Source: Flavobacteriales bacterium (GTDB lineage: Bacteria; Bacteroidota; Bacteroidia; Flavobacteriales_C; GCA-002722245). Taken from it: a stretch of DNA of 64,000 bases. Position 1 is the first letter of the stretch. Each line of letters opens with the position of its first letter. A program made the translations under genes and the position numbers. Below, in pieces: positions 311 to 31,335 of this stretch. The stretch spans positions 1 to 64,000 of the forward strand of contig CANFBW010000013.1 of the NCBI GenBank assembly GCA_947444925.1, written 5' to 3'. The notes under the pieces were generated by a model. It had not been told where the DNA came from and ran no database searches. It was given only the letters and a program-made list of their open reading frames with translations.

Positions 311-415
311 TGTGCGTGGTAAGCGCATAATTTTTGTCTAAAATAAATCGCAACATTTTTTTAAATACCTGTATAACACACATTTAAAAAAAACAGGTGT
401 TGCGTTGTAAGCGCA
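311..415 (+). promoter_or_regulatory. Two copies of a putative operator motif (TAAGCGCA core, 320-327 and 408-415) upstream of the GH81 gene
   Basis: TGTGCGTGGTAAGCGCA (311-327) and GTTGCGTTGTAAGCGCA (399-415); same core upstream of two other units of the locus. Confidence 0.45.
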
Positions 416-572
416 AACAACATTTAATGTAATAATCTGTATATCAATCAATTAAGCTGTAACTTTTCCTTATTTTACTTTGTTTATACCACCGTACCAC
501 TTAAATTGCGGAGCAGGCGATCACAAAGAAGCACATAAACCTTCTTTAACTTTTAATCGTAAGTAATACAAA

Positions 573-3500
573 ATGAAAATAACTCTCTTCTTTCTTCTCT
601 TAGCGTCCACCGGATTGTTAGTGGCGCAAACTGTAGCGGTTGGCTCAGGCAGCTATACGCTTTCATTGCCAGCAGGACCAACAATTTTACCGAATAATGC
701 AGCTCCTGGAACATCGCATTACCAAAGAGTAGACAATGTGGACAGAACGGGCGCGTTACCAAAAGTTGTTGCAGGTTTTTCTCAACCAATTGCCACCAAC
801 GATTGGTGGTCGTCAGCCATGTGGAGTTACGAAATGCCAAATAGCAACTACTACCCTGATTGGTTAATTGCTCCGTACTCTTTCTTGATGCATCCGCATC
901 CTTTAATTATACAAGCAACGCGATATGGATTAAATGTCTCCTCTGAAAACAATCCAGTATTCTCCAATAGCGCCAATGGCGGAATGGTGGACTACCATGT
1001 TTGGAGGGAAAATCACTTATGGGTAGGGCTTGATGGCATGGATGTTCCAGCGTCTACCGGCACAAAAATAAAAAGCTACGGAGATTGGTCCGTGACCATG
1101 CAATGGGACGATGGTGCAGGAAGGGTATTGGAAGCAACCACTGGTCACGGTATTCCATACGTATATTTCAAAAAAACGGGGCCAAGCAATCCAACCTTAC
1201 GCTATGTAGCAGGCACACCAACTCCTTTTGCTTCCATTTCAAATACTACTATTGAAGCCAGAGGAATAACCTTATTAGGCAAACATTATGGTGTCTTTTG
1301 CCCTCCGGGAACAATCATCAGCACCTCCTACATACTTAATATCATGGAAGGAGATATGGCTTACAACAACGTACCTCGTGATGCGCAAAAAATTCAATTA
1401 CCAGCAGGACAAAACTATTTTTCTGTTGCCGTACTCCCAGATAATTCACCAGCCACCCTTGCTTATTACGCCAAATTTGCTTTTGCTTTCGTCACCGACA
1501 CAAAAGTTTCATGGGAATACGATGAATGCAAATCACTTGTAAAAAACACGTTCAATTTTGTTACATCTCCGCAAGGAACTAGCACCGAAACCAAAACATT
1601 GATGGCAATGTATCGACATCAGTATAAAAACATTGATGCAACTTCATCCGCGGCCGCAACAGCATACAGTTATCCTGCAACTGCTCGTGGTGAAATGAAG
1701 GTGTATGAAGGTAGTTCCTTTGTGAATGGACACACCAACCATGGCTTCCTGCCTGGAATGCCAGATTACGGAAATTACGACAAAACAAAATTGTATAATT
1801 ATGTGCAAACCGAACTCGCCAAAGGAAAAAATTACTTTTTCTATGCCGATAATCAATCATTAGCAGTATACGGTGCGGGGGTTGCACTTCTTAAAATTTG
1901 TGATTTGATTGAATTAGCTGATATGGTTGGACATACGGTTGCCCTCAACACTTTTAGACAGTGGACCAAAGATTATCTACAACGATGGTTTACCACAGGC
2001 AAAGCAGCAGCACCAAACGACGATCAATTTTATTACGATGCCACCTGGCAGTCGCTCATCGGAATGCCTTCCGCTTTTGAATCTGATCGACAGCTGAATG
2101 ACCATCATTTCGGTTATGGATATTTTGTTAAAGCAGCAGCAATCGTGGCTAAATATGAGTCGAACAATACTTGGGAAACCCAGTGGGGACCAATGGTAGA
2201 AATGCTAATAAAAGATGTTGCCAACTGGGACCGCAGCAATACACAGTTTCCTTTTTTGCGCAATTTCGACCCGTATGCTGGGCATTCATGGGCTTCTGGC
2301 CATGCTAATTTCACTGCAGGAAACAATCAGGAATCCAGCTCCGAAGCGATTAACTTTGCCTCTGGTGTTGCCCTTTGGGGAACCGAAACCAACAACAAAA
2401 CCTTACGAGATTTAGGTGCTTTTCTTTATGCCACAGAAATTGATGGTTACCGCCAATATTGGCAAGATGAGGACAAAGCCACATATCCTGCGGGCAACTG
2501 GTTTAATACGGCTGGTATGGTTTGGGGGTGGGGCGTCGGCTATCAAACTTGGTTTGGAAGTGGCGCATGGCCAGGACCTTATAATCCTGAATACAATCAT
2601 GGCATAAGTTTTTTACCCATTAGCGCAAGCTCGCTATACCTAGGTTTGAATCAAAGCGCTGCAGCTGACAACTACAATGAAATGACAGCCAACAACCTGA
2701 ATGTCAACAGCAAAATTGGCCCCCCACATACCGACTTCAAAGACATTATATGGTGTTCGCAAGCCCTATTTGATAATCAGTCGGCAAAAAGCGCCTTCGA
2801 TGCAAACGAAACCACCTATATTCCGCAAACTGGAGAAACCAAAGCACATACTTATCAATGGATATACGCTTTAGATAAACTAGGAACCGTTGATGCCTCC
2901 ATCACTGCCGACATGCCAACTTATGCTGTTTTCAACAAAAACGGCTGTAAAAACTACGTCGTGTACAACCCTACAGGCGCCTTTGCAAAATCAAAGGTAA
3001 CCTTCTCCGACGGCCGCTGTTTTCTCTTGCCAAAGCAAGATACAATCTACGTTTTCAACAAATGTCCCGACCCAAAAAAACCAGATTCAATCTATGTAAC
3101 CTGTCCCAATAATCCGGTAAAACTCATCGCCAAAGACACTCTTTGCGGCAGTAATTTTCAGTGGGACCGTAATGGCACAAGCATTGGTGGCGCCACAAAA
3201 CTCAGTTATCTCGCAGCACTTGCGGGAGAATACCACCTAAGTTACAAGATCAGTGACTGCTTGGTAAAGAAAGACACGTTTAAGGTTGTATTGAAGGACA
3301 CCATTAGTACATCAAACCTTAAAAAAGTATGCAATGCTTTAGGAACAGCCTATACTTTAACCTTCGATATCAGTGGTGGTGATGCTGCATCATATACTGT
3401 TAAAGTCAATGGCTCCGCGACAGGTGGACCTGGGCAACTTAACGGATCTACCTTCACAAGCGCATCCATTCAAAGTGGAAAATCATACTTCTTTTTGATC

Positions 3501-5903
3501 AGCGACAAAAATAACTGCGATGTTGACACCATTTCCGGAACGCAATCCTGTCTTTGCACAACCATGGCTGGAACTATGAAACAAGCCGCCTTGAAAGTCT
3601 GTGGAGATACCGCAATTGCTCGCGCCATGCACAACAATGATGAGGTCTTAGATGCCAACGATACGCTGATCTACTATTTGCACAATGGCAGCGGCGGCGC
3701 ATTAGGAACAGTTTACGGCAGCGCCAACACCCCTTCTTTCAGCTATAACAACACCCTAAACTATGGCACCACTTATTATATTTCAGCTGTAGCAGGCAAT
3801 AAAAACAGCAGCGGTGGCATTGACTTGAGTGATCCTTGTTTGTCGGTTGCCAAAGGAACCATAACAGTTTTTTGGCCATTGCCAAGCGCCCAACTGGGTA
3901 ACGATACCGCTGTTTGTCAAGGAAGCAGTATAACACTTGATGCAGGTAACAGCGTAAGCTATCTTTGGTCAACTGCTGAAAGCACCAAAACAATTTCGGT
4001 AAATACAGCTGAGAAGTTCAGTGTGCGTTTTACCGATGCTAACGGCTGTGTTAATAGCGATACTATTGTTGTAAAAATCACCCAAGCGCCAAGTACACCC
4101 ACATTCACTGAAACATGCAATGGCACCAACGATTATACTGTGAGTTTTACCATCAGTGGCGGCGACTCATTGTCATATAGCGTTCTCATGAGTCCCGGAA
4201 GTGCTGGTGGGCCAGGTATATTAAACAACAAAACATTCACCAGTGCACCTATTCCTAGCGGTACTCCCTACTCTTTCATCGTAAAAGACAAATTCAGCTG
4301 CACACCCAATACTGTAAGCGGCACAAAAAACTGTAATTGCTTCACCAATGCGGGCAACATGTCGCTTGCTACAGTAAGCGTTTGCGAAAATACCACAGCT
4401 GTAGTAGCCACCACAAGCGCTTCCCAACTTGATGGCACCGACATATTGCGCTACTATTTGCATAGCAACAATGGCACAACTTTGGGCACGGTATTCGCGA
4501 GTAACGCAACGCCTTCGTTCAATTTTGCACCTCCCCTGGCATACGGCGTCAATTACTACATTTCAGCGGTAGCAGGAAATGACAATGGCTCAGGCGCAAT
4601 TGATTTAAGCGACCCCTGTCTATCAGTTGCAAAAGGAACACCAGTGGTTTTTTCTGCACTTCCTTCTTCTTCATTTGCAGGAAATGACAGCACTGTATGT
4701 GGCAATAATGCTATGCTCGCTGCAAATCTTCCTGTACACGGCACTGGTATTTGGACACTTAGCGCAGGCACTGGAAACTTCACCAACATTACCTCACCCA
4801 ACAGCTCAGTAAACGGCATATCCACTGGAAGCAACACCTATACCTGGACCATCATCAGTGGAACCTGCCCACCCACCTCGAGTAACGTGACGATCAAAAG
4901 TGATGCGCTTCCAAGTCCTTCGCTTGCAGGCACGGCGCAAGAAATTTGCACCAACGAAAGCGCACTCGCAGCAAACATGCCAACTGTAGGTATTGGATCA
5001 TGGACAGGCAGCGCAACCATCAATGATAATTTGTCGGCAACATCAAAAGTATCAGTGCTGCAAATCGGAGACAATACTTTCACCTGGACAATCAGCAATG
5101 GTGTTTGTCCGCCGTCAGTATCCAACGTCATTGTGAAAGTGGATGCACAACCGATTAACGACAATGTTTTCGCAGCAAAGGAAATTTGCGGAACAAGCGG
5201 CGCCATCGCTGCAACGGCACCAAGCATAGGTACTGGCGCATGGTCAATCAGCGGGGGAAGCGCCACAATTGACGATGTAAACAGCAACAACACAACGGTG
5301 AGCGGCCTGCAACAAGGCGACAATGAAGTGCTGTGGACAGTGAGCAATGGAACTTGTCCAAGCGTAAGCAAAACCCTCCACATCAGCACCAAACCACTCC
5401 CTGCACTAAACCTCGGTAAAGATTCAACCCTATGCGACGGAGACCATGTGCTCCTGAGTGCCGCAAGCGCTTCGGCTCCATACACCTATAGTTGGCAAGA
5501 CAACAGTACTGGGTCACAATATTTGGCGACGAAACCGGGGCAATATTTTGTAAGTCTAAAAGCAGCTGACTGTCCGGCAGTGAGTGACACCGTCGTTTTC
5601 GATAACAATTGTCCCTACCATTTCTACTTGCCAAACGCTTTCACACCAAATGGCGACAACAAAAACGAAGTATTCAATGCCAATGCCTATAACATCCTAA
5701 GCTTTGAAATGGATATTTTCGACCGATGGGGAGAAAACATATACTCAACAAGTGACCTAGAGAGCGGATGGAATGGCAAAAGCCGGTGGGGAAATGATGC
5801 CCAAATAGACGTTTACGTTTACAAAATCAACTTTACAGTACTGTCCCAAAACGACAAAACTTTATACAAATCTATCATAGGAAGAGTGTCTCTTATCAGA
5901 TAA
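573..5903 (+). CDS. Secreted GH81 endo-1,3-beta-glucanase (laminarinase) with Ig-like repeats and C-terminal gliding motility-associated (CHU_C, T9SS type B) domain
   Basis: Signal peptide; GH81-like motifs NDWWSSAMW, DYHVWRENHLWVG, GHSWASGHANFTAGNNQESSSEAINFASGVALWG; C-term FYLPNAFTPNGDNKNEVFN...FDRWGENIYSTSDLESGWNGK. Confidence 0.9.
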   Translation: MKITLFFLLLASTGLLVAQTVAVGSGSYTLSLPAGPTILPNNAAPGTSHYQRVDNVDRTGALPKVVAGFSQPIATNDWWSSAMWSYEMPNSNYYPDWLIAPYSFLMHPHPLIIQATRYGLNVSSENNPVFSNSANGGMVDYHVWRENHLWVGLDGMDVPASTGTKIKSYGDWSVTMQWDDGAGRVLEATTGHGIPYVYFKKTGPSNPTLRYVAGTPTPFASISNTTIEARGITLLGKHYGVFCPPGTIISTSYILNIMEGDMAYNNVPRDAQKIQLPAGQNYFSVAVLPDNSPATLAYYAKFAFAFVTDTKVSWEYDECKSLVKNTFNFVTSPQGTSTETKTLMAMYRHQYKNIDATSSAAATAYSYPATARGEMKVYEGSSFVNGHTNHGFLPGMPDYGNYDKTKLYNYVQTELAKGKNYFFYADNQSLAVYGAGVALLKICDLIELADMVGHTVALNTFRQWTKDYLQRWFTTGKAAAPNDDQFYYDATWQSLIGMPSAFESDRQLNDHHFGYGYFVKAAAIVAKYESNNTWETQWGPMVEMLIKDVANWDRSNTQFPFLRNFDPYAGHSWASGHANFTAGNNQESSSEAINFASGVALWGTETNNKTLRDLGAFLYATEIDGYRQYWQDEDKATYPAGNWFNTAGMVWGWGVGYQTWFGSGAWPGPYNPEYNHGISFLPISASSLYLGLNQSAAADNYNEMTANNLNVNSKIGPPHTDFKDIIWCSQALFDNQSAKSAFDANETTYIPQTGETKAHTYQWIYALDKLGTVDASITADMPTYAVFNKNGCKNYVVYNPTGAFAKSKVTFSDGRCFLLPKQDTIYVFNKCPDPKKPDSIYVTCPNNPVKLIAKDTLCGSNFQWDRNGTSIGGATKLSYLAALAGEYHLSYKISDCLVKKDTFKVVLKDTISTSNLKKVCNALGTAYTLTFDISGGDAASYTVKVNGSATGGPGQLNGSTFTSASIQSGKSYFFLISDKNNCDVDTISGTQSCLCTTMAGTMKQAALKVCGDTAIARAMHNNDEVLDANDTLIYYLHNGSGGALGTVYGSANTPSFSYNNTLNYGTTYYISAVAGNKNSSGGIDLSDPCLSVAKGTITVFWPLPSAQLGNDTAVCQGSSITLDAGNSVSYLWSTAESTKTISVNTAEKFSVRFTDANGCVNSDTIVVKITQAPSTPTFTETCNGTNDYTVSFTISGGDSLSYSVLMSPGSAGGPGILNNKTFTSAPIPSGTPYSFIVKDKFSCTPNTVSGTKNCNCFTNAGNMSLATVSVCENTTAVVATTSASQLDGTDILRYYLHSNNGTTLGTVFASNATPSFNFAPPLAYGVNYYISAVAGNDNGSGAIDLSDPCLSVAKGTPVVFSALPSSSFAGNDSTVCGNNAMLAANLPVHGTGIWTLSAGTGNFTNITSPNSSVNGISTGSNTYTWTIISGTCPPTSSNVTIKSDALPSPSLAGTAQEICTNESALAANMPTVGIGSWTGSATINDNLSATSKVSVLQIGDNTFTWTISNGVCPPSVSNVIVKVDAQPINDNVFAAKEICGTSGAIAATAPSIGTGAWSISGGSATIDDVNSNNTTVSGLQQGDNEVLWTVSNGTCPSVSKTLHISTKPLPALNLGKDSTLCDGDHVLLSAASASAPYTYSWQDNSTGSQYLATKPGQYFVSLKAADCPAVSDTVVFDNNCPYHFYLPNAFTPNGDNKNEVFNANAYNILSFEMDIFDRWGENIYSTSDLESGWNGKSRWGNDAQIDVYVYKINFTVLSQNDKTLYKSIIGRVSLIR

Positions 5904-5991
5904 TTCAATCATCTAAGTCCATAGAAAAATGAAACATTGTTTTCCACCATCAGTAAAAAGTCCACTACGTAACTTAATAAAAACAGCATTG

Positions 5992-7881
5992 ATGACTAAA
6001 AAATTCATTGCCCTACTTTTCGCCTTAGTGCTTTGCCTGCCCTACTTTTCTAACGCACAAGAAGCCCTTATTTTGGATGAAGCCAGTAAAGACGACTACG
6101 TCATTGAAGGCAATTCCACCGTGGTTTTAGAAGACCCGAGCAATGAACTCACATTTGAGCAAGTGAGTAGCGAAGACTATCAATCAAAATTTTTACCACA
6201 TCACATTGCAGAGCGCTTCGACTTTGTTGAAAATCCAGAATCGACCTATTGGATAAAATTTAAATTGCGGGCAAACACAGTACTTCGCAAACACTACGTT
6301 TTAGAAAACAGCGACTCTCACATCGACAATTTTGAATTGTACAAACCTGGAAACAGTAGCGCTAATGTTTACATCAAAGAAAAAGCAGGTTTCGCTTCAA
6401 ACTTTGGAATACGCAAATATTCACACAAAAACTTTGTCTTTGATATTTCACCAAGCACTACTGTGCAAACCTATTTTGTGCGCATAAAATCCGCAAACCA
6501 CAACCCCTTTATTTTTAAAATTCGAGCCACTTCTTCTTTCTCAAGTTACGCTTTGGCGGAATATTACTTATTGGGCCTTTTCTACGGAATTTTAGGTATA
6601 ATGGCGATATACAACTTCATCATGTTCTTATCCTTACGAGACAAAGTGTATTTGTACTATGTGCTTTACGTAATTTGCGGCGCGCTAATTTCAATGGCCG
6701 AAGATGGTTTGGGCTTTCAATACCTATGGCCAAATAGCCCCGCAGTGAACTCATTTGTAGCGCAAACCGCACCACTACTTTTACTCTTGAGCTTTACGGT
6801 TTATGCAAAGCAATTCCTGGAATTGAAAACACTTTTGCCAAAAACAGACAAGATCCTCAATTACATTATGATAGGATATGTGTGTTTCTATATGGTCAGC
6901 GTAACAACTGGAATGCAGTTCGCTTATGAAATATATCTACTTCCCTATCTATTCCTATACGCCACCTCCATTGTTTGCATAAAAAAAGGACTACACCAAG
7001 CCCGCTACTTCATTTTGGGATATTCATTCATGATCTTGACCATCATCAATTTTACCTTGCGAATGAGTGGATTTATTAGATGGGACAACATCATTTTCAT
7101 TTACTCCTTTAACATTTGTCTCGTATTCGAAATTGTAATTCTCTCCATCGCATTGGGTGACCGAATTAGATTGATTCGCGCCAAACAAGAAAAAGCACAA
7201 GAAAAAATCATTGAACACTTGAAAGAAAATGAACTACTCAAAGACAAAGTAAACCGTGAACTTGAAGAAAAAGTTTTGGAAAGAACACGCGACCTCGACG
7301 AAAGAAACTTGGAGTTAAAAGATGCCTATGAGGAAATCAATCGATTCAATGCCTTACTGGATGCCGACAATAAAGTGCTCAAAACCAACGTAAAGGAGTT
7401 GTCAAAAGCCCGCGTTTTGATGAAAGAAGTGAACTTTGAGGAATTCAGCAGAATATTTCCCGACAAAGACAGCTGCTTGAAATACCTTATCGATTTAAAA
7501 TGGTCAAAGGGTTACGCATGCAAAAAGTGCGGTAATACCAAATGGTGCGAAGGCAAAGACGACTTCTACCGAAGATGCACGAAGTGCCGCTATGATGAAT
7601 CGCCAACTGTTGACACCATCTTTCATAAACTGAAATTTCCCATCAATAAAGCATTCTATCTGCTCTTTTTGGTATTTGCCAATAAAGAGAAAATCACTTC
7701 GCTGGAACTTTCCAACATATTGAGTTTACGCCAAAGCACTTGCTGGACTTTCACAAAAAAGATTCATGAGATTTTGGCTTCTCGCAAGAAGATAAGTCAC
7801 AACGACCAAGATGGTTGGGGAAAATTAGTACTTAACGAAGAAGATGATAAAGCAATAAAAACAAATGAAACTTCTATTTAA
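5992..7881 (+). CDS. 7TMR-DISM-type membrane receptor fused via coiled coil to an IS1595-transposase-like zinc ribbon/HTH domain (ORF opens at 5929; start at 5992 gives a clean signal peptide)
   Basis: Signal peptide MTKKFIALLFALVLCLPYFSNAQ; extracellular DISMED2-like domain; several TM helices (about aa 205-415 of the 650-aa ORF); EKAQEKIIEHLKENELLKDKVNRELEEKVLERTRDL coiled coil; then IFPDKDSCLKYLIDLKWSKGYACKKCGNTKWC...RRCTKCRYDESPTVDTIFHKLKFPINKAFYLLFLVFANKEKITSLELSNILSLRQSTCWTFTKKIHEIL. Confidence 0.85.
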   Translation: MTKKFIALLFALVLCLPYFSNAQEALILDEASKDDYVIEGNSTVVLEDPSNELTFEQVSSEDYQSKFLPHHIAERFDFVENPESTYWIKFKLRANTVLRKHYVLENSDSHIDNFELYKPGNSSANVYIKEKAGFASNFGIRKYSHKNFVFDISPSTTVQTYFVRIKSANHNPFIFKIRATSSFSSYALAEYYLLGLFYGILGIMAIYNFIMFLSLRDKVYLYYVLYVICGALISMAEDGLGFQYLWPNSPAVNSFVAQTAPLLLLLSFTVYAKQFLELKTLLPKTDKILNYIMIGYVCFYMVSVTTGMQFAYEIYLLPYLFLYATSIVCIKKGLHQARYFILGYSFMILTIINFTLRMSGFIRWDNIIFIYSFNICLVFEIVILSIALGDRIRLIRAKQEKAQEKIIEHLKENELLKDKVNRELEEKVLERTRDLDERNLELKDAYEEINRFNALLDADNKVLKTNVKELSKARVLMKEVNFEEFSRIFPDKDSCLKYLIDLKWSKGYACKKCGNTKWCEGKDDFYRRCTKCRYDESPTVDTIFHKLKFPINKAFYLLFLVFANKEKITSLELSNILSLRQSTCWTFTKKIHEILASRKKISHNDQDGWGKLVLNEEDDKAIKTNETSI

Positions 7882-7971: not shown

Positions 7972-7988
7972 ATTGTTTATTAAGCGCA
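7972..7988 (+). promoter_or_regulatory. Putative operator motif copy upstream of the 8106-8984 gene
   Basis: ATTGTTTATTAAGCGCA; same core as at 320, 408 and 9908. Confidence 0.4.
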
Positions 7989-8105
7989 AATTAACTTAGT
8001 TTAACACTCTACTAATCAATTAGTTACGAAAAATAAATCTTCAATTTTACTTGACCTTCGAACAAATAACACTTATCATTGTCTCATAAACTAATACTCT
8101 ATACC

Positions 8106-8984
8106 ATGAAAAAAAATTTACTCTCTATTTTAAGCGCAGTTTTTTTAGGAATCAGCGCTAACGCACAAACTTTCTTATACAGCAACGACTTCTCTACAGC
8201 ACCAGTTCCAACAGGAAGCGGCGCATTCACACACGCAGGCGATGGCTCTGTTTGGACAATCACAGCAGCTGGTCATGATGAATGGGATGTAATTGAACTT
8301 GCATTTCCTTCAGCGCTGAACTTCAAAACTTCTGGAGCTAAACCAGTAGTGAGCATAACCGCTACCACAAATCAAACCGTTGCTTTCAGCTTCACATTAA
8401 AAGATGGCAGCGGCAATCATTCTGATGCACTCGGAGATCTTCCTTCAGCTCCTACAACTATGAATATCATTAAAGACGCAACCGTGGCAACTTACTCTTG
8501 CAATTTTGCAGGTGGTTTTGATGATTTACATGGCGGACCAGAAGGCTCTTACAAAGGAAAAGTAGATTCAACAAACATTGTTGGCATAACTTTCAGAGTG
8601 AACGCTGGATGGGCTTCAAGCCAATGGACTTACCACCACGGTTTAGGAGATGCTGCTACATACAAATTGGCATTAAACGGCACCATTAAAATTGACAAAT
8701 TAACCGTTGGTGAAATACCAGCTGGTGTTGCGGTAAACAACAACAGCAATTCAATGAATGTTTTCCCAAACCCTGCAACAGGTGTTGTGAACGTAACATT
8801 GAACAACCCAAATTCTGAGTTACAAACCGTTTCAATTTCAAACGTGTTGGGTCAGCAAGTATATAACAACCGAACAAGCAACTCAAACATCACTGTTGAC
8901 TTATCTGGATTAGAAAAAGGACTTTACTTAGTAAGCACTCAATCTAAAGAAGGCATTACTACTAAAAGATTGTTTTTGAACTAA
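8106..8984 (+). CDS. Secreted protein with C-terminal T9SS type A sorting domain
   Basis: Signal peptide MKKNLLSILSAVFLGISANAQ; C-term MNVFPNPATGVVNVTLNN...GLEKGLYLVSTQSKEGITTKRLFLN. Track start at 8079 is TTG; ATG at 8106 is better. Confidence 0.85.
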   Translation: MKKNLLSILSAVFLGISANAQTFLYSNDFSTAPVPTGSGAFTHAGDGSVWTITAAGHDEWDVIELAFPSALNFKTSGAKPVVSITATTNQTVAFSFTLKDGSGNHSDALGDLPSAPTTMNIIKDATVATYSCNFAGGFDDLHGGPEGSYKGKVDSTNIVGITFRVNAGWASSQWTYHHGLGDAATYKLALNGTIKIDKLTVGEIPAGVAVNNNSNSMNVFPNPATGVVNVTLNNPNSELQTVSISNVLGQQVYNNRTSNSNITVDLSGLEKGLYLVSTQSKEGITTKRLFLN

Positions 8985-9510: not shown

Positions 9511-9898
9511 CTACTAATAATAAACACCCCACACAATGCCTTTGATGTTTCTAAAACCCATCGAAATGGGCATTTGAAAAATAACTATAGAAAGCAGCGC
9601 TTGGCATATCTTTAATAATAGCAAACATTAATTCAAAGCTTCCGTATAGACCCACTATTACATGATGAAAATTAAATAATCAAAGCTTTGCATTTAAAAA
9701 AAACCAAAGTTGCTGTTGCAAGATGTATCTACAAAGAATAAACCGCAAGAAATGCTCAATGAAATACAAAACAAATACAAAGAGAAAAGGAACTAAATCT
9801 TACACCATCGTACATAAAAACGTGCTACTTAAACGATATTTATACTAACGTATGACTCCCCTTAAACCTTCAATAACAGAGTTTTACAAACAAAATAG

Positions 9899-9915
9899 AT
9901 TGCATTTTAAGCGCA
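9899..9915 (+). promoter_or_regulatory. Putative operator motif copy upstream of the 10052-18695 gene run
   Basis: ATTGCATTTTAAGCGCA. Confidence 0.4.
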
Positions 9916-10051
9916 CACAAAATCTAATTAAACGATTGATTTTCAGATTTTTATGTGTTATTAGATTAAAAAAAATAGTTTTAATTTCACTTGATTAATG
10001 CCCATTTATGATCTATACTTGTTTTGATAACAAACTAAAGCACTTCAATCA

Positions 10052-10636: not shown

Positions 10637-10645
10637 GCTTTGACT

Positions 10646-11545
10646 ATGCTGAGATACAACCCAATAAAACTAATGACCATCCTCTTCCTTGCTTTGCTAG
10701 GGAGCGCATGCTCCACGGTAACTATGGTGGAACAAGAAGATCTATACGTACCGGAGTCGGAAATGGTCACGATAGACAACACGTCAACCATTGACAATGG
10801 CTATAAACCATCACTTAAACGCAAAGGCTGGGAGTTAATTTGGGCAGATGAATTCAATGACAAGAAACTTGACACTAGCAAATGGAACTACGAAGTTAAT
10901 GGCGATGGCGGCGGCAACAATGAATTACAGTACTACACTGCATCGCCGAACAACGTTTACATGTTAGAGAACAAATACCTCGTGCTCAAAGCCATCAAGC
11001 AAAATTACAAAGGCAAAATGTATACATCAGGGCGATTAAACACAAGATACAAACATGGTTGGATATACGGCCGTTTTGACATACGCGCTAAAACGCCAGT
11101 ACAACAAGGTATTTGGCCGGCCATTTGGATGCTTCCTACCGACTATGTTTATGGAACGTGGCCTCAAAGTGGTGAAATTGACATCATGGAATCGGTAGGT
11201 CATCAGCCAAAATCATGCGTGGGCACAATGCACTTCGGACAACCATGGCCCAACAATTCTTACAAAGGAAAAACTATTGACGTCGCTGAAGGCGACCTTT
11301 CTACTGCCTTTCATTTATATTCAGTAGAATGGGAGCCCAAAGAAATCAGATGGTACATTGACGACAGCTTGTATTCCACTATGACACCAGCCAACACAGA
11401 TCCGCAGAGATGGCCCTTTGACCAAACATTTCACATGATATTGAACTTAGCGGTTGGTGGGCAATGGCCAGGTCCGCCAGATGAGAACACCACATTCCCA
11501 AAATACATGTACGTAGACTATGTACGTGTATACCAAAAAAAATAA
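10646..11545 (+). CDS. GH16 family glucan endo-1,3-beta-glucosidase lipoprotein (laminarinase)
   Basis: Lipobox LLGSAC; WELIWADEFND...; catalytic motif SGEIDIMESVGH; WPAIWMLP. ATG at 10646 preferred over the TTG at 10640. Confidence 0.92.
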   Translation: MLRYNPIKLMTILFLALLGSACSTVTMVEQEDLYVPESEMVTIDNTSTIDNGYKPSLKRKGWELIWADEFNDKKLDTSKWNYEVNGDGGGNNELQYYTASPNNVYMLENKYLVLKAIKQNYKGKMYTSGRLNTRYKHGWIYGRFDIRAKTPVQQGIWPAIWMLPTDYVYGTWPQSGEIDIMESVGHQPKSCVGTMHFGQPWPNNSYKGKTIDVAEGDLSTAFHLYSVEWEPKEIRWYIDDSLYSTMTPANTDPQRWPFDQTFHMILNLAVGGQWPGPPDENTTFPKYMYVDYVRVYQKK

Positions 11546-16448: not shown

Positions 16449-18695
16449 GTGAATATTAAACTCATACCCCTATCCTTGTTGTGTCTGTTTTACACGACAT
16501 CTCCCGCTCAGCAAAATGCTGACGAAGCTACAATCGACAAGCTGATTGCTCAAATGACACTCGCTGAAAAAGTGGGACAAATGACACAGTTAACCCTCGA
16601 CAAAGTAGCCAAAGGCAAAGAATTTGACGACAACAAAACCATGGAAATAGATCCGCAAAAATTGGATTCTGTTTTGTTGCACTACCACGTTGGATCCATT
16701 TTAAACACAGGAACATACGCGCTTCCACGCGAAAAATGGTACGAGCTAATTTCTCAAATACAAAAAGTTGCTACGCAAAAAACACGAATGAAAATTCCTG
16801 TCCTGTATGGCATCGACGCCATACACGGCGCAACATTTACTGCTGGCTCTACCATCTTTCCACAGGAGCTGGCAATGGCTGCAACTTGGAACCCTTCGCT
16901 GGTTGAAAAAGCAGGAGCGATCTCAGCCTACGAAGTACGTGCATCGGCTATTCCGTGGAATTTCTCACCCGTATTGGATTTGGGCAGACAACCCCTCTGG
17001 TCTCGCTTTTTTGAAACCTTTGGCGAAGATCCCTACCTCGTTGCACAAATGGGAAAGGCCATCATTCACGGCTATCAAGGAGATGACTTCAACCATCCCG
17101 AAAAAGTTGCTGCCTGCTTAAAACACTACGTCGGCTATAGCAATTCGGTATCAGGAAAAGACCGCTCGCCCATTTTAATGCCTGAACGTTTGTTGAGAGA
17201 ATACTATTTGGTACCCTTTGCTGAAGCAGTGAAAAATGGCGCGATGACCGTAATGGTGAACTCAGCCGAAATCAATGGCACACCCGTGCACGCCGACTAC
17301 CACATCATCACCGAAATACTAAAACAAGAACTAAAATTCGACGGTTTTGCTGTTACCGATTGGGAAGACATCATTATGTTGTACTCGGTGCACAACGTTG
17401 CCGCAAACTACAAAGACGCTGTTGCAATGGCCATCAATGCAGGCATCGATATGAGCATGACGCCATCTGACGTTACTTTTTGCAAACTACTGATTGAAAA
17501 CGTAAATGAAGGCAAAGTTGCCATGAGCAGAATCGACGATGCCGTGAGAAGAATTTTACGTGTGAAAATAAAATTGGGTTTGTTTGAACACCCTTACTAC
17601 GACGCTAAAATGTATCCTAAATTTGCTTCCCCTGAATTTAGCAATCAAAATTATTTAACGGCCTTAGAAAGTGTAACGCTATTGAAAAACAACAACAACA
17701 TCATGCCATTGTCTAAAGGCAAAAAAGTTTTGGTAACAGGTGCTGGCGCCAACTTGCTGAATCCCTTAAATGGAGCATGGACCTATACTTGGCAGGGTGT
17801 TGAAACTAAACACAATCCAAAAGACAAAAAAACAGTTTTGCAAGCCATACAAGATGAACTAGGAGCTGACAAAACAATATATGTCGAGGGAACAAGCTAT
17901 GACAAAGATATCAATACAGCAGAAGCTGTTAAACAAGCCCAAAACGCCGACTACATTGTTGTTGTTTTGGCAGAAAAACCAAGTGCAGAAAAACCTGGAG
18001 ACATCGAAGATCTAACCATGGACAGAACGCAACTCAACCTGGTGAAAGAATTGGCTAAAAGCGGCAAACCCATCGTACTGGTCTTGTTGGAAAACCGCCC
18101 GCGCATCATTTCTGAAATAGAGCCCTTGGCTGCAGCCGTAGTAATGGCCTACCACCCAGGAAATGAAGGCGGAAGAGCTATAGCAGAAATCTTATTTGGC
18201 GATGCCAATCCGAGTGGAAAACTTCCTTTTACCTACCCGCGTTTCACTGGTTCTTTCACAACCTATGATTACAAAAAATCGGAAACCCGCGACATTAATT
18301 TTAAATTCAATGCAGTCAATCCTCAGTTTACTTTCGGTTCAGGATTGAGCTACACCACATTTCAATATAGTGATTTAAGCATTGACAAAACAAAAATAAC
18401 ATTGAACGACAGCCTTACTGTTACTGTGAAATTGACCAACACGGGCGCACGCGAAGGAAAAGAAGTGGTGCAAATGTATGTTCGTGACGAAGTCGCATCA
18501 ATTACACCCTCGAACAAGCGCTTGAGAGCCTTCTCTAAAGTGAATTTAAAGGCCGGAGAGAGCACAACACTAAGCTTTGTTATTCACCCTAAGGACTTGG
18601 CATTTGTAAATGCTAAAAACGAATGGATCACCGAAGCTGGAGATTTCACCGTGATGATAGATGGAATGAGCAAAGGATTTTTGTTGAGTAAATAA
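16449..18695 (+). CDS. bglX: GH3 beta-glucosidase (BglX-like)
   Basis: GH3 motifs IPVLYGIDAIHGA, FAVTDWEDI (nucleophile Asp), FTFGSGLSYTTFQYS and fibronectin III-like C-terminal domain. GTG start. Confidence 0.9.
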   Translation: MNIKLIPLSLLCLFYTTSPAQQNADEATIDKLIAQMTLAEKVGQMTQLTLDKVAKGKEFDDNKTMEIDPQKLDSVLLHYHVGSILNTGTYALPREKWYELISQIQKVATQKTRMKIPVLYGIDAIHGATFTAGSTIFPQELAMAATWNPSLVEKAGAISAYEVRASAIPWNFSPVLDLGRQPLWSRFFETFGEDPYLVAQMGKAIIHGYQGDDFNHPEKVAACLKHYVGYSNSVSGKDRSPILMPERLLREYYLVPFAEAVKNGAMTVMVNSAEINGTPVHADYHIITEILKQELKFDGFAVTDWEDIIMLYSVHNVAANYKDAVAMAINAGIDMSMTPSDVTFCKLLIENVNEGKVAMSRIDDAVRRILRVKIKLGLFEHPYYDAKMYPKFASPEFSNQNYLTALESVTLLKNNNNIMPLSKGKKVLVTGAGANLLNPLNGAWTYTWQGVETKHNPKDKKTVLQAIQDELGADKTIYVEGTSYDKDINTAEAVKQAQNADYIVVVLAEKPSAEKPGDIEDLTMDRTQLNLVKELAKSGKPIVLVLLENRPRIISEIEPLAAAVVMAYHPGNEGGRAIAEILFGDANPSGKLPFTYPRFTGSFTTYDYKKSETRDINFKFNAVNPQFTFGSGLSYTTFQYSDLSIDKTKITLNDSLTVTVKLTNTGAREGKEVVQMYVRDEVASITPSNKRLRAFSKVNLKAGESTTLSFVIHPKDLAFVNAKNEWITEAGDFTVMIDGMSKGFLLSK

Positions 18696-29124: not shown

Positions 29125-30999
29125 CTATTCTACTACAAATTTCAGCGTATATAACTCTTGCTGCATCTGCACGCTGATGAAGTAGATGCCTCGTGCCAAT
29201 TGCTTTTCAAATTGCAGAGGCAATGCTACTCCTTTGTCAAGCCAAACGATTTGCGAAAACAAGAGCTGGCCAAGTGCATCATACAAAACCACCGTGCACG
29301 CCGAGCGTTTCACAGGCAATGAGAAAAAGAGTGAAATTGCACTGCCATCACATGGATTCGGGTAAAGTGAAAAAACCGCATCGGATGTACCTTGCGCAGC
29401 GATCAACACTATTTTTGAATATGAACTTGAGCCATCGGCATCTGTTTGCTTTAAGCGGTAGTAAACCATCTGCGCAGTGGCATCCGCATCGAGAATTTCA
29501 TAGTTCAAAACAGCGTAGGAAGTGCCCGCACCTTGTACTACAGCGATATTTGTAAAATGAACACCATCCGTTGACCTTTCAACGGTAAAATAATCGTTGT
29601 TGATCTCTGATGCTGTTGACCAATAAAGGCTATTTCCACCACTAACACGTGCTGCATTGAAAAACAAAAGCTCAATGGGTAAAACTGCGTTGCTGTATTG
29701 AAATGCACCAATGTCTTTGTTATTAGTTGGGCGAACATAAGGGGGATTGCGCCTCACATCATCGGTCACTGTGCCATCAGCACCAGCAGCACCAATAGCT
29801 GGTGAGCCCACAGTGATATCAAGTACAGTAGCACTTGTATACAATGGGTCGGCACTCAAACTATTGGCATCCTTCGACAACGCAGCTTTCCACGCAGCCA
29901 ACGTTGAATAATTCGATCCATTTCTATTGGCAATGTATCCACTAGGCGCATAGTATATGTTGTAGTTCAAAGTAGTTGGATCATTGCTATTGTCGGGAAA
30001 ATTGAGACAATTGCGAGCGGTGGAATAAAAAATATTGTTTTGAATCGTCCAACTCAAACACGCACCATAAATACAATCCTTATCAGAGCGAATAGAGTTG
30101 AACTTAAAAGTGTTAGTGGCATGACTGCCAGTACTGTTCACGCAAAAAAGTCCATATTCACACGCCCAAACAAAGTTGTTTACCCAAGTATTGCCAGTAC
30201 CTTCTTGCTGAATGTCGAAGCCGTAATTGAAGCCACTGATTCTGTTGCTGCTTAAGCGACAATTGTCGGCCAAGTAGGGAGCGGGAAAAGAAGTAGTTCC
30301 TTCAATGATAATGCCCAAATGGTTTTGTCCGGCAGTGTAGGCCGATGCATGGGTGATGGTATTTCCATCAAAAATCTGATTGGAACTATTGTACGAATCA
30401 ATACCGTTGTATACAGTGCTGATCGTACAAGAATTCACGCTGCAATTGCTCGCGGTCATAAACACAATGGCAGCTCCACTGGCCACACATTTAAAAGAGC
30501 ACGAACTGAAAATGATGTTCGATGTTCCTGCGTTGACGTAAGCTGTATTTACATTTTGTGTTGTTTCTACATACACGTCTCTAAAAGTAATATAGCTATT
30601 GCCACTTCCAGAGCCATTTCCAATGGCAATACCCTGCGAAGAAGTGTAAATATTTTTGGTCAGCCCTACGCCCGCTCCTTGAAAAGTCAAAGGTGATCCA
30701 TTTGTTCCGCCATCAGCATTTGAATTGAGTGCCCAACCCTCATTGTAGTTTCCAGCATCAATGTAAACAATATCGTTCGCACCAAGTACTTTGTTGCTGA
30801 TTACATACGAAACCGTTAAATAAGGTTGCGAGGCCGACCCTGTTCCTGCACTGTTATTGCCAACTGCAGAACAGTAAACGTCACCAATTGTTGCACCATC
30901 ATTAACATACCATGTTGCCGAAAAAGCACTTAAGTGCGCGCAAAAGCAAATAACGAAGAGCGAAAAATGAGGGAAAATGGATGTAAAATTCTTATTCAT
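29125..30999 (-). CDS. Secreted right-handed parallel beta-helix protein with C-terminal T9SS type A sorting domain
   Basis: Repeated N-x-I/F strand-turn pattern; signal MNKNFTSIFPHFSLFVICFCAHLSAFS; C-term FSLYPNPCDGSAISLFFSL...RGIYFISVQMQQELYTLKFVVE. Confidence 0.82.
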   Translation of the reverse strand: MNKNFTSIFPHFSLFVICFCAHLSAFSATWYVNDGATIGDVYCSAVGNNSAGTGSASQPYLTVSYVISNKVLGANDIVYIDAGNYNEGWALNSNADGGTNGSPLTFQGAGVGLTKNIYTSSQGIAIGNGSGSGNSYITFRDVYVETTQNVNTAYVNAGTSNIIFSSCSFKCVASGAAIVFMTASNCSVNSCTISTVYNGIDSYNSSNQIFDGNTITHASAYTAGQNHLGIIIEGTTSFPAPYLADNCRLSSNRISGFNYGFDIQQEGTGNTWVNNFVWACEYGLFCVNSTGSHATNTFKFNSIRSDKDCIYGACLSWTIQNNIFYSTARNCLNFPDNSNDPTTLNYNIYYAPSGYIANRNGSNYSTLAAWKAALSKDANSLSADPLYTSATVLDITVGSPAIGAAGADGTVTDDVRRNPPYVRPTNNKDIGAFQYSNAVLPIELLFFNAARVSGGNSLYWSTASEINNDYFTVERSTDGVHFTNIAVVQGAGTSYAVLNYEILDADATAQMVYYRLKQTDADGSSSYSKIVLIAAQGTSDAVFSLYPNPCDGSAISLFFSLPVKRSACTVVLYDALGQLLFSQIVWLDKGVALPLQFEKQLARGIYFISVQMQQELYTLKFVVE

Positions 31000-31335
31000 G
31001 ACAAAAGTTTGCTGCATTAGAGTAATCGGAGACAATATTACGCGTAAATGCGCTTTGAGTCAAGTTAAAAAAGCAAAAAATAAAATGCATCTTGCTGATA
31101 TATAGAACGTTACAAATACAAATTTGCGGTTACAACACACTTAGCATGAGACTCAAATACTTGATTGACAAGCCTTATTTAATTCAATTGCGTCTCAAAA
31201 TTTACACTTAGAGAACAATTCTTCACAAAAAAACTATTCTACCAACAAAGCAATTTTTCGGACAAAAAACACTAAAACATTAGGTTTTCATCACCACAAA
31301 TTATATATTAGGCAAGCCAAACTAATTTATTAGAT

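Follow-up and report, generated by a model that had tools for sequence, protein, structure and literature searches.

Glycan breakdown in Bacteroidota is usually explained by SusR-like, HTCS or ECF-sigma control. SusR is a membrane one-component regulator of a PUL, with a DNA-binding domain described as similar to no known one and predicted operators made of direct repeats with a spacing of 67 or 77 bp (PMC3878776). HTCS regulators also act at PULs and place a periplasmic glycan sensor and a DNA-binding output in one chain. The original description of the 7TMR-DISM receptors reportedly predicted direct DNA interaction for some members. 7TMR-DISM is among the architectures that have been listed for the ChiS-family DNA-binding domain (PMC8092284).

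The receptor encoded in the 64-kb stretch of Flavobacteriales DNA analysed here (the window) belongs to a family that shares with SusR and the SusR-like proteins of Bacteroides a membrane-spanning one-component design, a periplasmic sensor, a cytoplasmic C-terminal DNA-binding domain and linkage to SusC/D, together with long-spaced direct repeats (64-66, 76-79 and 89-92 bp in the receptor family) as the putative operator. Unlike SusR, it combines a DISMED2-7TM sensor with an IS1595-type domain, and the likeness to SusR is one of layout. The single-chain arrangement of HTCS is shared as well, and in one variant (genome G988) the propeller/Y_Y_Y sensor too, but the family has no kinase, receiver or AraC domain. 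Its extracellular and membrane domains, both above Pfam cut-offs, are those of 7TMR-DISM receptors (RetS, LadS and the kinase and cyclase forms), whereas its output is a transposase-type domain, different from the ChiS-family domain (PMC8092284). This output corresponds to the zinc ribbon and HTH of the N-terminal half of IS1595 family transposases, among which the receptors nest; unlike these, the receptor lacks the DDE catalytic half and is fused to a sensor.

A first-pass annotation of the locus had taken kinase, cyclase or phosphatase domains as the normal outputs of 7TMR-DISM receptors. The IS1595-type output that it set against them is present, yet DNA-binding outputs as such have precedent (PMC8092284). 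Its reading of the protein as one-component transmembrane gene control is likewise supported, with a novelty that SusR softens (PMC3878776). The receptor family is real, conserved and functionally coherent; transmembrane one-component PUL regulation itself is already known from SusR. In the literature searched, subscription papers lying outside that search, we found no description of an IS1595-type domain as a receptor output.

Results

A 7TMR-DISM receptor ending in an IS1595-type ribbon-HTH module

The proposed architecture of signal peptide, sensor, transmembrane helices, coiled coil, four-Cys ribbon and HTH held up, in an intact frame and by Pfam and NCBIfam matches (Table 1). An alternative in-frame ATG lies at 5929, ahead of the 5992 start, and the stop is at 7881. 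The 7TMR-DISMED2 domain of the window protein scored 74.1 bits against a Pfam cut-off of 22 and resembles in fold the periplasmic domain of RetS (3jyb; TM 0.74 by target length). The 7TMR-DISM_7TM domain scored 156.8 bits against a cut-off of 29 and was matched in 14 of 14 scanned orthologues. In the full-chain AlphaFold model, a continuous single helix (residues 372-475) runs from the membrane domain towards the ribbon.

The match of the C-terminal part to the N-terminal half of IS1595 transposases, without DDE domain, was also confirmed. In the window protein, PF12760 (Zn_ribbon_IS1595) scored 23.4 bits (E 6e-5), just below its cut-off of 25.4, and all 14 scanned orthologues matched it (best E 4.7e-10). 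The NCBIfam model transpos_IS1595 (NF033547) matched the HTH part with E 1e-4 for the whole protein and 8.5e-6 for the C-terminal piece alone, at a score far under the whole-transposase cut-off, as expected since the DDE half is absent. No DDE domain follows the HTH, and the protein stops 29 residues on; Pfam gave no histidine kinase, receiver or AraC matches in the window protein or the scanned orthologues. The C-terminal module was modelled by AlphaFold as ribbon plus HTH, as anticipated (pTM 0.73; pLDDT mostly >90 in both); the full-chain model has HTH helices at residues 551-563, 570-577 and 581-599. In a Foldseek search with this module, no match to a solved structure reached significance; the weak ones were ribbon-like or of the Lrp/MarR-type HTH kind. 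Sequence searches of the PDB returned nothing relevant.

Table 1. Coordinates in the window of the receptor gene, its domains, neighbouring genes and candidate operator half-sites
Feature	Position	Strand	Basis or remark
Receptor-transcription factor gene (putative function), 629 aa	5992..7881	+	Single open frame; orthologues aligned
Predicted signal peptide region, ~aa 1-23	5992..6060	+	Hydrophobic N-terminus ending NAQ, read from sequence
7TMR-DISMED2 periplasmic sensor, aa 42-174	6115..6513	+	Pfam 1.4e-20
7TMR-DISM_7TM membrane domain, aa 190-391	6559..7164	+	Pfam 9.1e-46
Signalling helix / coiled coil, aa 396-475	7177..7416	+	Model helix; kept in orthologues
IS1595-type zinc ribbon, aa 491-534 (C510, C513, C529, C532)	7462..7593	+	Pfam PF12760, just below cut-off
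HTH segment homologous to IS1595 transposase N-terminus, aa 548-600	7633..7791	+	NCBIfam NF033547
Short C-terminal tail with conserved Trp, no DDE domain	7792..7878	+	Sequence and orthologue alignment
GH81 endo-beta-1,3-glucanase, CHU_C type IX secretion tail	573..5903	+	Pfam; directly 5' of receptor
Secreted protein with Por_Secre_tail, first gene 3' of candidate operator	8079..8984	+	Pfam
GH16 glucanase	10640..11545	+	Pfam; 3' of receptor
GH3 beta-glucosidase	16449..18695	+	Pfam; 3' of receptor
Candidate operator half-site 1 ATTGTTAGCTAAGTGCAAAA	7895..7914	+	Spaced pair with 7972
Candidate operator half-site 2 ATTGTTTATTAAGCGCAAAT, 77 bp from site 1	7972..7991	+	Second-best single site in window
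Candidate half-site upstream of GH16 operon CGTGCTACTTAAACGATATT	9821..9840	+	Pair with 9899, spacing 78
Candidate half-site upstream of GH16 operon ATTGCATTTTAAGCGCACAC	9899..9918	+	Pair with 9821
Weak candidate half-site upstream of GH81 TGTGCGTGGTAAGCGCATAA	311..330	+	Pair with 399, spacing 88
Candidate half-site upstream of GH81 GTTGCGTTGTAAGCGCAAAC	399..418	+	Pair with 311
Candidate half-site ATTGTTCTCTAAGTGTAAAT before beta-helix gene 29125-31035 (-)	31200..31219	-	Congener-matrix top pair, score 37.7
Candidate half-site AGTGTGTTGTAACCGCAAAT, 78 bp from 31200..31219 site	31122..31141	-	Congener matrix

The fusion is widespread and most constrained at its DNA-binding end

The first-pass annotation had staked its reading on whether homologues share the fusion, and they do: the architecture occurs in ~180 sampled Bacteroidia genomes from several families. 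Two congeners carry the whole fusion at ~73% identity, and it was found again in other families at 31-36% identity over the full length. Profile searches for the coiled-coil/ribbon/HTH module, whose open frames were mostly 595-790 aa long, placed it in four further families, in 58 of 119 genomes of f9, 45 of 121 of f10, 62 of 201 of f2 and 11 of 299 of f3, with at most three copies per genome. Flammeovirga kamogawensis, Persicobacter and Aureibacter are named carriers; annotation names the 7TM part only, the RefSeq name of the family being '7TM diverse intracellular signaling domain-containing protein'. In one genome (G1025, L231), two receptor genes stand in tandem with 20 bp between them.

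We extracted 98 receptors with their neighbourhoods. Both CxxC knuckles (four Cys) are present in 98/98, and in every one only 82-121 residues lie beyond the ribbon. Identity between the window protein and its nearest congener is 95% in the ribbon-HTH, against 70% in the 7TM domain and 63% in the sensor, so constraint is strongest at the DNA-binding end; dN for the same pair is 0.058 in the ribbon-HTH versus 0.295 in the sensor, with dS saturated.

The module is also found on a different sensor. Genome G988 encodes a 1090-aa protein (L246:13112-16381, minus strand) in which this IS1595-type DNA-binding domain follows Reg_prop repeats and Y_Y_Y; it is a second copy near one of the 7TM type. Propeller/Y_Y_Y is the sensor type of classical PUL regulators, and its exchange for the 7TM sensor speaks for the module as a regulatory output.

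The module nests among IS1595 transposases

In a tree of the module, built from a short alignment (119 columns), 16 receptors formed one group inside DDE-bearing IS1595 transposases (bootstrap/SH-aLRT 95/77; 96% of bootstrap trees). Exaptation of a transposase DNA-binding domain, as originally claimed, is supported by this nesting, and a single origin of the receptor domain among the sampled sequences is favoured. The sister of the receptors is a standalone 137-aa ribbon-HTH protein from genome G169 (L087:1194-1607, minus strand), which has a WIEILK tail like theirs and no DDE part, and the transposase-derived regulator may therefore predate its fusion to a receptor.

Genome G171 (L252-L260, L262) encodes at least nine diverged full-length IS1595-like proteins that have apparently lost the first two DDE acidic residues, nearly all of them from genes without clear terminal inverted repeats; this set is possibly a second domestication. 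One element of the same genome, L257, has a 25-bp terminal inverted repeat, CGACATCATAAAANGTAATTGGTAT.

Receptor genes adjoin SusC/SusD and glycan enzymes

The receptor gene lies inside a conserved gene order, and the glycan-locus neighbourhood ascribed to it was borne out in the window, with GH81 on its 5' side and GH16 and GH3 on its 3' side, and across the family. SusC/SusD adjoined or lay near 73 of the 98 receptors: SusC was the next same-strand gene in 58 loci, followed by SusD and glycan enzymes, second or third in 8 more, divergent next door in 5 and nearby in 2. The same was true of only 1 of 19 other 7TMR-DISM genes in the same genomes (Fisher 1e-8), controls that their C-terminal sequences mark as kinases or hybrid kinases, and this rules out SusC/D linkage as a general 7TMR-DISM trait. 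The sampled neighbours include GH16, GH3, GH30, GH5, GH2, GH81 and PF10091 glucanase-like enzymes, and also SusE; RefSeq-annotated Persicobacter loci have agreeing neighbourhoods. For 25 of the 98 receptors there is no nearby SusC/D, and several of these adjoin GH genes. They include the window's genus, where GH81 and GH16 are retained, as is GH3 where the stretch is long enough; the 64-kb window itself holds no SusC/SusD pair, though one stands beside most relatives.

A candidate long-spaced direct-repeat operator

From 54 non-redundant receptor-SusC intergenic regions, unbiased expectation maximisation recovered the motif TTGnTaTTnAAGCGTaata. Unseeded training found its CGCTTnAA core separately in the f9 and f2/f3 sets; trained by itself, the f10 set yielded another motif, rich in A. 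The TTGnTaTTnAAGCGTaata motif is weak in f10, whose intergenic regions are longer than controls. The cross-family matrices did not pass when held to the strict criterion of the 99th percentile of shuffles. Against real intergenic controls, the between-family held-out AUC was 0.80 (p 7e-5) and 0.81 (p 1e-6), values from an imperfectly clean hold-out because the matrices started from a motif that had seen all families. Held-out sites lay mostly in the orientation of SusC. A core site was present in 21 of 44 receptor-SusC promoters, but in only 1 of the 28 SusC/TonB promoters taken from elsewhere in these genomes, which excludes a general SusC promoter element.

The sites form direct repeats. In 11 of 27 f9 promoters their spacing is 64-66 bp; in 10 of 17 f2/f3 promoters it is 89-92 bp, and a 76-79 bp class occurs there as well. 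The null maximum for 3-bp windows was 4. Palindromic LacI-like words (GCAAACGTTT), spotted by eye in a few intergenic regions, were discarded, since the unbiased search returned the other motif. When compared with the terminal inverted repeats of related IS1595-like elements, among which only that of L257 was clear, the motif gave no convincing match.

The window's family and the congeners were left out of the cross-family motif training. The resulting cross-family matrix nevertheless ranked 7895/7972 (77 bp), just 3' of the receptor gene, first among the spaced pairs of the 64 kb, and it gave a further pair, 9821/9899 (78 bp), in front of the GH16 operon. The congeners have pairs spaced 78-79 bp before GH81, where the spacing is 78 bp in both, and before the GH16 operon. 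With a matrix built from the two congeners, two pairs stood out in the window: 7895/7972 and a minus-strand one at 31219; leave-one-species-out scores are supportive and fall short of independent proof, because the genus-level half-sites were picked partly by spacing.

The gene at 29125-31035 (minus strand) encodes a secreted protein whose beta-helix and type IX sorting tail each match Pfam weakly. The strong 78-bp pair of candidate half-sites that precedes it lies 23 kb away from the receptor. Judging from this arrangement, it is likely a distant regulon member.

Discussion

We propose that the receptor is a one-component, membrane-tethered, transposase-derived transcription factor of glycan-utilisation loci, with putative DNA binding, activation and ligand, and give this reading a probability of roughly 0.8. 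Ligand, signal relay, dimerisation, binding of the paired motif by the receptor and activation are steps that we infer. The periplasmic DISMED2 domain would sense a glycan product, here presumably derived from beta-glucan, and the 7TM domain with the long coiled coil would relay the signal to two cytoplasmic IS1595-type ribbon-HTH domains that form a dimer. This dimer would bind two half-sites, direct repeats ~64-92 bp apart, in front of the neighbouring SusC/glucanase operon, which the bound receptor would then activate. The DNA-binding domain was probably captured once from an IS1595-type transposase, with loss of the DDE half.

The receptor might regulate the locus while another regulator, SusR-like, HTCS or LacI-type, binds the paired motif and the ribbon-HTH contacts DNA elsewhere. 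The link between motif and receptor is one of position, and SusR-like and HTCS motifs are likewise long-spaced direct repeats (PMC3878776). We nevertheless consider this unlikely, as the core is nearly absent from the 28 SusC/TonB promoters that served as controls and the motif occurs at receptor loci in at least three family-level groups with differing enzyme cargo. Release of a soluble DNA-binding fragment by regulated proteolysis of the membrane receptor would fit the low-confidence stretch between coiled coil and ribbon in the model (~aa 459-479) and the existence of the standalone 137-aa sister protein; the coiled coil is, however, kept in orthologues, and such cleavage seems slightly less likely still.

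That the ribbon-HTH has given up DNA binding and serves zinc-dependent dimerisation or protein contact could be argued from the several HTH positions that vary among receptors. It is very improbable for the most conserved part of the protein, with an HTH region still close to that of the transposases and a linkage to SusC promoters carrying a conserved site. Read-through by chance, or a misassembly that joins a receptor gene to a decayed insertion sequence, is refuted by the intact frames of orthologues across ~180 genomes.

TldR proteins differ from the receptor family in being RNA-guided, soluble and of unrelated fold. As domesticated TnpB regulators, they share with it the turning of a mobile-element protein into a transcription regulator (PMC13418256). 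The receptors probably constitute a further class of Bacteroidota glycan-locus regulators, defined by a captured IS1595-type domain that is portable between sensors (7TMR-DISM, and propeller/Y_Y_Y in G988) and has its own putative long-spaced direct-repeat operator. Given the unmatched DNA-binding domain of SusR and the likeness in operator layout, one may ask whether capture from transposases lies behind more of such regulation. The family would add a widespread and testable further kind of glycan-locus control with an output of transposase origin, offers a concrete operator prediction for many glycan loci, and is a clear bacterial case in which transposase capture has led to a membrane receptor with a putative direct action on DNA.
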